Below the pieces are notes generated by a model. It was not told where the DNA came from and made no database searches. It saw only the letters and a list, made by a program, of their open reading frames with translations. From assembly GCF_017355785.1 (NCBI RefSeq), contig NZ_JAFEWE010000009.1:62001-126000 (forward strand): a stretch of 64,000 nt of DNA. Reading direction: 5' to 3'. This DNA is from Desertivirga arenae (GTDB lineage: Bacteria; Bacteroidota; Bacteroidia; Sphingobacteriales; Sphingobacteriaceae). Positions 46,312 to 48,610 of this stretch are shown one piece after another. The stretch's first letter is position 1. Each line of letters opens with the position of its first letter. The position numbers and the translations under genes are program-made.

Positions 46312-46538
46312 TAATTATCGCGTTTTTTAAGGATAGAATAAAACCCGATACCAAAACCCACCAACACTACCACTGGAGCAAGTACAGTTTTTCGAAAATC
46401 GTAAATGTCCGTTTCTCCTATCATCAGAATAAATCCTAAGACAATCACTGCTATTGCCAGCAGCATTAGCCTGTAGTTGCTTTTACCGAATACAAATTGT
46501 ACCGGTGTATTTGTAGACGAAGTTTTCTTTAATGCCAT
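46311..46538 (-). CDS. DUF3098 small membrane protein
   Basis: The 75-residue protein has two transmembrane helices (about 26-43 and 51-67) and the DUF3098 pattern FVFGKSNYRLMLL and ending FGIGFYSILKK. It is found between ftsX and uppP in many Bacteroidetes, as here; the function is not established. It overlaps its neighbours on both sides by one base, so the three genes are translationally linked. Confidence 0.85.
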   Translation of the reverse strand: MALKKTSSTNTPVQFVFGKSNYRLMLLAIAVIVLGFILMIGETDIYDFRKTVLAPVVVLVGFGIGFYSILKKRDN

Positions 46539-47416
46539 TATCTGTAAAGGTTATTAACTTTTAATCTTAAGTATTTGGTTACTGCAAAGTAGGTGCTCAA
46601 CCCAGCGATCAGGATACCTATTGCCACCACACCTGCAAATACTAATGCAAATTCGTACCAATTTTTTAATATAACTAACTCTGGAATTTGCTGCTGTGCC
46701 AGGTACAGCGCGCCCAAGAGCAAAATAATAGCTATAAGCGATCCTAATAGTCCGTGTATAATTCCATATCCGATAAAAGGAGCGCGGATAAAGTTCTTTG
46801 TAGCGCCTACCAATTGCATTGATTTGATCAGGAAACGCTGGGAGTAAATTGCAAGACGTATGGTGTTATTGATAAGAGCAATTGCGATAATTAATAAGGT
46901 ACCGGCAAAAGCCAGGATCACCAGACTTATAACTTTGATATTTTGATTCACCATATCTATCAGTGACTTCTGATAAATAACCTCTTTTACCAAAGGGTTT
47001 TTGGATAACTGACGGGTGAAATTTTCGATGCTGGCGTTATTGGCATATTCCTCCTTCATGTATACATCTATTGACGAGAGGAGGGGATTATAGCCAAGGA
47101 ATTGTACGAACTCTTCTCCCAAGTCTTTCTGCAAGTTACGTGCAGCAATTTCTTTACTAACATATTGAGATCGGAGTACATAAGGGTGCGTATCTAATTG
47201 TTTTTGAAGCGCAAGCACGTCCACCTCTTTAGCGCCATCACTTACAATAATATTTAGAACAATATTTTCTTTAACGTATTTAGAAAGATTGCGAGCATGA
47301 ACCATGATCAGTCCAAGCAGGCCAATCATTAACAAAACCAATGCAATACTAATCACAGTTGAAATATATACTGGTTTAGTTTTCTTTGCAGCGGTGCTTC
47401 CTTCAAATTCTTCCAT
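46538..47416 (-). CDS. ftsX: Cell-division permease-like protein FtsX
   Basis: FtsX is the membrane partner of FtsE, linking the divisome to peptidoglycan hydrolases. The 292 residues show one N-terminal transmembrane helix (about 20-41), an extracytoplasmic domain (about 45-165) and three C-terminal helices (about 168-195, 217-240, 258-282), the FtsX layout. The SMQLVGATKNFIRAPFIGYGI coupling stretch is typical. No ftsE is adjacent, which is common in this phylum. Confidence 0.92.
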   Translation of the reverse strand: MEEFEGSTAAKKTKPVYISTVISIALVLLMIGLLGLIMVHARNLSKYVKENIVLNIIVSDGAKEVDVLALQKQLDTHPYVLRSQYVSKEIAARNLQKDLGEEFVQFLGYNPLLSSIDVYMKEEYANNASIENFTRQLSKNPLVKEVIYQKSLIDMVNQNIKVISLVILAFAGTLLIIAIALINNTIRLAIYSQRFLIKSMQLVGATKNFIRAPFIGYGIIHGLLGSLIAIILLLGALYLAQQQIPELVILKNWYEFALVFAGVVAIGILIAGLSTYFAVTKYLRLKVNNLYR

Positions 47417-47691
47417 AGCCTGTTTAATTACGCGAAAATAACTATTTAACTAAAGTCCTTAACGTAAAATTGAATATTTAGATATTTTTAACAAAGAAAG
47501 AGGGGGGGATTTGCGATTTACGAATTACGAATTACGATTTCCGGGATGCCAATGCGATACGTTGGTGGGTGGGGGGAGGCATAATAGAGTTACAGAATGT
47601 AATGTAAATGTCAGGCTTTATTAAAGCACTAAGTTTTCGTAACCTTCTGTTTTTTAGTGCGTAATAATCATCAAATACCAAATTGAAAAAC
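47417..47691. other. Gene-free region with G-rich runs and ACGAATT repeats
   Basis: This 275-bp stretch upstream of ftsX and of the 39-codon frame has a GGGGGGG run at 47502-47508, tandem TTACGAA units (about 47513-47540), and a GGTGGGTGGGGGGAGG tract (47564-47579) that is unlike the AT-rich surroundings. I see no gene in it. The ACGAATT units resemble the GATTTACGAA sequence near 10963. Confidence 0.5.
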
Positions 47692-47811
47692 ATGAGAAAG
47701 CAAGCATCTATCCTGATTGAAGGAATATTAAATCAGATCTTTGGCTTAAAGCCGCAAGCAGTAGCAGTTTTGAAAAATGGAAGGCAAGTTGTTGTTCCGG
47801 TTCGGAGATAA
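47692..47811 (+). CDS. Possible 39-residue basic protein
   Basis: A complete 39-codon frame opens with ATG at 47692 and ends with TAA at 47811. The peptide is basic with an amphipathic start (MRKQASILIEGILNQIFGL), followed by a basic, valine-rich tail (VVVPVRR). It lies alone in a gene-poor stretch, is followed 75 bases later by a strong terminator, and codes for no longer protein. I do not recognise a family. The coding call is tentative because a short frame can occur by chance, but its composition and its terminator support expression of something here. Confidence 0.45.
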   Translation: MRKQASILIEGILNQIFGLKPQAVAVLKNGRQVVVPVRR

Positions 47812-47886
47812 CTTGGTTGCAAAATATAGTTTAGAATAAGGGTTTAGTTTTATTTAGTGTATTTTTTAGGTTAAAGGTTGATTGTT

Positions 47887-47918
47887 AAGAGGCTGTTCCA
47901 GGAAAGAACAGCCTCTTT
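47887..47918. terminator. Bidirectional terminator at 47.9 kb
   Basis: A 12-bp perfect stem (AAGAGGCTGTTC at 47887-47898 with GAACAGCCTCTT at 47906-47917) with a 7-base loop lies between the 39-codon frame and the convergent lipoprotein gene. Confidence 0.85.
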
Positions 47919-47929
47919 GTTATTAATGC

Positions 47930-48610
47930 CTATTCGAAGGACACTGTATAACTTGAGTTTAAAGCATTTTTTAATTGCTTATATAATTCGGTGTTCGAAG
48001 TAGGGCTGATTATAATCTTATTTCCAGTGGGGGTAGCCGTTGGTAGCTTAGAAAAATCCATTGCGGCAAAAAGTTTATTCACTTCCATCTTTACAACTGC
48101 AATGTAGTTATCTCGTCTGATCTTAGCCCATAGGTTTTTTACATTAATGTGCAGAGCAGCCTCGTCATTAAAGTAAAATTCAACTGGAACAACTGCTCCA
48201 GATGGAAGAGTTACCAAAGCTTTTAATGTAAGGGGAGGATGTTCTGCAGATGGTTTAAGGTACAGTATTCCATCAATTTCATCAAATTTATTGTAGGTCC
48301 TGAAAGTGATCGTAAATAAATCGTTATTATCTGCCAGCATATTCACGTTCCAAAGACCCTCCATCGCATTGCCTCCTACTACCGTTCCGCTGTTCTTCAA
48401 TTTCACATCAAAGCTTGCCAGGTTCAGCCAGGCATACGTCCATTCAACAGACGGGACAGCAGAGGTGGTGGTACCCGACGATAGTGAAGTTTCAGCTTTA
48501 AATTTAAAGTCTATCGTCTGTTCTTCCTGTTGTTCTTCTTTCTTACAGCCGGAAAATGCAACAGCGCTCATTAGCAGAGCAAAAAAGCTAAGTTTTAAAT
48601 GTTTTATCAT
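47930..48610 (-). CDS. Lipoprotein of unknown function
   Basis: The 226-residue product has a lipoprotein signal peptide with lipobox AFSGC (Cys22), followed by an acidic linker (KKEEQQEEQ). The mature part is rich in beta-strand and resembles other short Bacteroidetes lipoproteins with FDVKLKNSG- and LTLKALVTLPSGAVVPVEF-type strands, similar in style to DUF4382-like proteins, but I cannot assign a family. It stands alone, divergent from leuS. Confidence 0.7.
   Translation of the reverse strand: MIKHLKLSFFALLMSAVAFSGCKKEEQQEEQTIDFKFKAETSLSSGTTTSAVPSVEWTYAWLNLASFDVKLKNSGTVVGGNAMEGLWNVNMLADNNDLFTITFRTYNKFDEIDGILYLKPSAEHPPLTLKALVTLPSGAVVPVEFYFNDEAALHINVKNLWAKIRRDNYIAVVKMEVNKLFAAMDFSKLPTATPTGNKIIISPTSNTELYKQLKNALNSSYTVSFE

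Follow-up and report, generated by a model that had tools for sequence, protein, structure and literature searches.

Does an isolated frame of 39 codons, lying in a gap of 513 bases that is bounded by an FtsX-like gene and a gene for a 226-aa protein, both on the minus strand, encode a protein, and if it does, under what control would it be expressed? The initial annotation of this DNA had described a 39-codon frame for a basic peptide, placed it in a stretch of G runs and ACGAATT repeats with no neighbour on its strand for 700 bases and with a 12-bp terminator behind it, and had read it as either a small-protein gene or the coding part of a small regulatory RNA. An ATG frame of this length is indeed present on the plus strand (Table 1), and the next plausible plus-strand gene, leuS, starts at ATG 48786, about 970 bases past its stop. 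In 2000 dinucleotide shuffles of the 513-base gap, a plus-strand ATG frame of at least 39 codons arose in 22%, and a frame of that length on either strand arose in 42%. Because its length is at chance level, the frame by itself is no evidence of a gene, and it stands out only through its homologues. It thus illustrates how a frame that is meaningless by length can be validated via distant copies. In what follows, the window is the whole 64 kb stretch of DNA that was analysed, the window copy is the 39-codon frame, and its relatives are the second own copy (54 aa), from the same genome as the window, and the congener copy (52 aa).

Table 1. Features in and around the gap that holds the window copy
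Feature	Position	Strand	Basis or remark
FtsX-like gene	46538-47416	-	145.5 bits, under the family cut-off of 255
G-run and ACGAATT 7-mer DNA, left of the promoter-like element and outside the conserved unit	47494..47638		blastn; repeat absent at the other copies
Promoter-like GTAAC-N16-CGTAA	47639..47664	+	elements and spacing kept in all three copies
5' leader, TACCA..TTGAAA.AC directly before ATG	47665..47691	+	three-copy DNA alignment
Predicted small-protein gene, 39 aa (MRKQASILIEGILNQIFGLKPQAVAVLKNGRQVVVPVRR)	47692-47811	+	ATG frame; homologues
GGTTGATTG box, 3' untranslated region	47876..47884	+	three-copy DNA alignment
Intrinsic-terminator-like hairpin, 12 pairs, weak T tail (TGTTATTAAT)	47887-47917	+	stem search
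226-aa gene	47930-48610	-	matches no NCBIfam model; lipoprotein-like by eye only

A small-protein family with three copies

Homologues in related genomes had been proposed as a check on the frame, and the search for them gave one in a congener and one more in the genome of the window itself. The congener copy was found in a 60-genome search in Pedobacter sp. SYSU D00535 (G002) at E 6.5e-5 and 42-44% identity, and the second own copy (C9:107676-107825) was found with a two-row profile at E 1.3e-12, which makes three copies in all, two of them from one genome. Smith-Waterman scores of the three pairs reach z values of 27, 16 and 9 against 2000 shuffles, and ten alignment columns are invariant across the three proteins. 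The peptide of the window copy is basic, as annotated (net charge +6), but this character is not conserved, the net charges across the copies being +6, +2 and -3.

The codon alignments (Nei-Gojobori) speak for translation. The proportion of synonymous differences exceeds that of nonsynonymous differences in all three pairs, i.e., in window versus congener copy (pS 0.78, pN 0.32), second own versus congener copy (pS 0.89, pN 0.36) and window versus second own copy (pS 0.75, pN 0.47), and third codon positions change most in each pair; with three sequences and saturated synonymous sites, no rate ratio is given. An alignment for synonymous change, which the initial annotation had called for, thus turns out in favour of coding: the excess in all three pairs points to a translated gene, or recently one in the case of the window copy. 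Judged by this pattern, the window frame is, or until recently was, a translated gene.

The family appears to be confined to a narrow group. The 60-genome search, at E up to 10, listed 15 of the 60 genomes, none below 0.05 beyond the own genome and G002. Among 399 genomes of the taxonomic family, the two-row profile at E up to 1 listed 233, mostly by chance, and the three-row profile at E up to 0.01 listed 12, of which two are real and ten are others; in the class, the three-row profile listed only the own genome among 395 sampled, both sets being even draws from larger groups. Of the ten others in the taxonomic family, five (L031, L092, L093, L094 and L096) were rejected because the conserved pattern was missing, no frame ran from start to stop or the leader did not match, and five (L030, L033, L091, L095 and L097) as partial matches inside frames of 286-787 codons. 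The third genome of the genus, G001, gave no family member with the three-row profile at E up to 0.01. In contigs of 84,980 species, scanned under the requirement of the conserved peptide pattern and possibly leaving out the own genome, the two-row query (137 stretches) gave no further member and the three-row query (18 stretches) gave the congener copy only. No credible member was found in viral contigs, plasmids or phages (the last searched with the 52-aa copy only), three Acinetobacter rows of the plasmid search at E 0.9 being taken as chance. Matches in Pfam, NCBIfam (two of the three copies), PHROGs and PADLOC were weak and none was credible, and two PDB sequence searches gave no convincing relative (eight rows with a best E of 0.015 in one, none in the other). 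On these comparisons, this is a new, lineage-specific small-protein family, known, so far as searched, from a Pedobacter-like genus alone. Its interest lies in the fact that no curated model matches it and its transcription signals are in place, in a phylum whose small proteins are poorly charted.

Signals that flank the frame

The coding sequence is embedded in a layout that is common to the three copies. The ATG lies 26-29 nt beyond the promoter-like GTAAC-N16-CGTAA in each of them, and in the 64 kb window this element has a single match, where 0.04 would be expected. The element resembles the -35 and -10 boxes of ECF sigma factors. None of the three copies has the box TAnnTTTG within the 150 bases that precede its ATG; according to the available text of PMC7366714, this box is the primary-sigma consensus of the phylum. 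The leader, with TACCA and GAAA.AC, is similar in all three copies; used as a search pattern it is not enriched, with eight matches, of which three are the family copies, as opposed to 18 for its reversal, and it yielded no new member. Downstream, the 3' box reads GGTTGATTG in the congener as well and GGATGATTG in the second own copy, in each case shortly before a hairpin.

The claimed 12-bp terminator corresponds to a terminator-like stem of 12 pairs, the only stem found in 47400-48000 (shuffle mean 0.3), and each relative has its own hairpin after the frame. At the window copy, the hairpin also lies downstream of the convergent 226-aa gene, 13 bases from its stop, and may serve that gene too. 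A possible pairing between the leader and the 3' region was looked at by eye and not retained.

The G runs and ACGAATT repeats of the initial annotation exist, but they lie upstream of the conserved unit and not in it, about 60-140 bases before the inferred promoter. The G runs, at 47502 and 47571, are not unique, the whole window containing nine G/C runs of at least six, and the repeat amounts to 3.4 copies of the 7-mer (47514-47537). Its 11-mer ACGAATTACGA was not found in the 3 kb around either of the other copies, and no G run of six lies near the gene at the second own copy or the congener copy. An 18-mer of this repeat occurs once in the own genome, yet in 58 viral-contig stretches, and DNA similar to the repeat is found in cyanobacterial plasmids, with 21 places in one Dolichospermum record (E about 0.1).

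Taken together, two homologues, a coding pattern in all pairs and a common promoter-leader-frame-terminator layout bear out the small-protein-gene reading. The three units are homologous all the way from the promoter-like element to the hairpin, although their neighbourhoods are unrelated. It is quite likely, from comparison of the sequences, that the locus is a transcription unit with a single gene, which encodes a small protein, and one of three family copies found, so far as searched, in one small Pedobacter-like genus. The gene is probably under an alternative sigma factor: an ECF-type factor would start transcription at GTAAC-N16-CGTAA, in which case the protein would be made under stress or another special condition rather than constitutively. 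The product would probably consist of a helix and then a beta hairpin and act through binding of a partner.

Shortening, movement and other readings of the locus

The first alternative concerns the window copy only, namely that the family is real and this member is a decaying, already shortened pseudogene. Indeed, the window copy ends ahead of a C-terminal block, RFCSL[ST].FL, that both of the longer copies have, and inspection by eye revealed no such block in any frame past its stop. In addition, its -10 box reads CGTAAT where those of the relatives read CGTAAA, and its pN against the second own copy is higher than that of the other pairs. However, the 39 codons are not relaxed relative to the congener copy, with a pN of 0.32 beside 0.36 for the full-length pair, and the promoter-like element, leader and hairpin are all in place. 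Decay is somewhat unlikely, and the window copy can be regarded as a variant that is shortened but still works, or else as a pseudogene at an early stage.

A second alternative is suggested by the genomic context, since the three copies lie in unrelated neighbourhoods. The second own copy adjoins a gene for a NodU-like carbamoyltransferase, and G002 has a relative of this gene (87% identity; 146 bits, below cut-off) without an adjoining small gene. In G002, an ECF sigma gene (L109 3076-3639) is divergent from this carbamoyltransferase-like gene, on the side on which the own genome carries the second copy. The congener copy lies between a response-regulator-like gene and a gene for a 151-aa protein without an NCBIfam match; this site is not comparable, because the 151-aa neighbour was found in G002 only. 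The small gene is absent from the ftsX gap of both G001 and G002, where the gap measures 183 and 308 bases, respectively, against 513 in the window. Homology with the window (blastn) ends at 47493 in G001 and at 47449 in G002 and is picked up again only within the next gene or past it, which leaves the extra DNA without a definable right edge.

Carriage of the unit, now or formerly, as cargo of a small mobile element would explain such unrelated neighbourhoods, and the three differing contexts and the lack of the gene at the ftsX locus of both congeners and at the carbamoyltransferase-like locus of G002 agree with it. The window unit is also bracketed by an inverted repeat of 14 nt that matches at 12 of 14 positions, at 47484-47497 and 47914-47927, 416 nt apart. 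Nonetheless, this repeat is not shared: at the congener copy there are just imperfect pairs unrelated to it, at the second own copy there is no pair, and some of the left arm belongs to DNA that G001 has as well. Inspection of the open reading frames by eye revealed no transposase, the searches of viral contigs, plasmids and phages gave no relatives, and an old duplication followed by loss would give an identical picture. Mobile-element cargo is therefore an unlikely account, and it is possible that either movement or duplication with loss lies behind the scattered copies.

It might further be supposed that what is conserved here is a small RNA, with the frame being incidental. A promoter-like element and a hairpin of its own would delimit a short transcript of about 250 nt, and for the window copy its fold is better than that of most shuffles (z -2.2, with five of 200 doing as well). 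The transcript of the congener copy folds unremarkably, however (z -0.9), the codon-position pattern in all three pairs speaks against an RNA, and Rfam gave no match in the window at the gathering score, the best permissive match being Yfr19 (E 0.097, 26.3 bits against a cut-off of 70). Little therefore supports the other reading of the initial annotation, a small regulatory RNA with a coding part, and an incidental frame is quite improbable.

A more specific idea concerns the function of the protein. The structure model comprises a helix and two strands at a poor pLDDT of 59.7, and that of the window copy is a shorter version (pLDDT 61.8, also poor). In a comparison chosen post hoc, before Foldseek listed Hfq, the congener copy gave a gapless alignment with the helix-strand-NG-strand beginning of Bacillus Hfq. 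An hhalign comparison of the family with Hfq covered 26 columns at 42% identity, with E 0.015 as a single comparison and a probability of 2.9%. Hfq chains took the top nine VIA rows, with Z 2.4-2.8, a common level, among 411 chains preselected by Foldseek. The best Foldseek E was 1.0, values being 1 or worse for both of these poor models, and chemokines came first for the window-copy model. With a six-row Hfq profile, the 7.1 bits of the congener copy were reached by ten of 9242 scored shuffles, whereas the score of the second own copy was reached by 7723 of 9311 and that of the window copy by 1914 of 9365; the best of 142 scored unrelated small ORFs of the window attained 7.0 bits. When the columns of the family profile were shuffled, the true mean was reached in one of 300 cases and the true maximum in none.

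In contrast to Hfq with its five-strand fold, the family is short (39-54 aa) and, by eye, has no KHAIST motif. Hfq is absent among its Pfam and PDB sequence matches, and BLASTP gave no alignment between the two. The copies were not assigned to the Hfq family: there is no significant sequence-family match, and for two of the three the score does not rise above that of shuffles. The resemblance of the congener copy is a weak lead, and a miniature RNA-binding protein derived from Hfq (a helix, two strands and a shortened end) and expressed from an alternative-sigma promoter is a very improbable reading of the family. As background, Bacteroides is reported, in the available text of PMC7366714, to have no obvious homologue of Hfq or ProQ, and no literature was found on an Hfq-like small protein in Bacteroidetes.

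Finally, a chance open frame without function, which the chance-level length of the window frame would allow, is scarcely credible given the homologues, the constraint and the common flanking signals.

A candidate promoter class of the genus

The promoter-like element can be considered beyond the family. Single short genes with their own promoter are found among small proteins controlled by ECF sigma factors, and GTAAC-N16-CGTAA resembles that promoter type, for which the Bacillus sigma-W type, TGAAAC-N16-CGTA, is an example; the searches linked the family to no named small protein by sequence. In the literature, no match was found for the promoter letters GTAAC-N16-CGTAA, and the ECF and promoter matches listed concern other phyla. 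In Bacteroides thetaiotaomicron, PM2 is a second promoter class besides that of the primary sigma factor, has -10 and -30 boxes and also stands before some small RNAs (PMC7366714, available text). The present element would be like PM2 in adding a second class to the primary-sigma one in this phylum, with boxes near -10 and -30. It is unlike PM2 in that the latter is near-palindromic according to a figure legend, a comparison made by description, given that the available text of PMC7366714 has neither the letters of PM2 nor any GTAA; the available text of PMC11697453 and PMC10994844 likewise contains no PM2 letters.

In the three genomes of the genus, GTAAC-N16-CGTAAA occurs at 8, 9 and 6 sites (23 in total; L068-L090), compared with 3, 2 and 6 (11 in total) for the reversed pattern and 4, 3 and 2 (9 in total) for a spacing of N19, a control that is small, the sites moreover not being independent (three are one repeated sequence and two are homologous). 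In G001 the excess is absent (6 sites against 6 for the reversed control). Intergenic positions account for 17 of the 23 N16 sites versus 3 of the 9 N19 sites, and a codirectional ORF of at least 90 codons lies within 250 bases at 11 of the 17 intergenic N16 sites versus 2 for N19; a stricter count, with GTG and TTG starts allowed, puts 15 of 22 in intergenic DNA. By a heuristic estimate, 12% of the window lies outside genes, and at that rate 16 of 23 would have a binomial p of 2.9e-10, a value that was computed for 16 where 17 were observed and whose significance is inflated by the AT-richness of intergenic DNA. These counts suggest that GTAAC-N16-CGTAAA is a promoter class of this genus, likely of the alternative-sigma type. 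Its value lies in exposing a likely alternative-sigma promoter, GTAAC-N16-CGTAA, at named, testable sites.

One site in the own genome (L077 1501-1626; C12:774222 onward) precedes a candidate noncoding RNA of about 90 nt, with no ATG frame of 30 codons within 200 bases, a strong terminator-like hairpin and a fold better than that of shuffles (z -2.5); as a relative of the family it was rejected, the alignment being without clear homology. Two of the 23 sites belong to the small genes, the window copy being excluded by its CGTAAT. Behind other sites lie genes for a BLUF protein, an M48 peptidase, an NlpC/P60 protein and a histidine kinase, one site precedes a tRNA-Arg, and one precedes a protein with an exosortase/archaeosortase signature (40.8 bits, cut-off 23).
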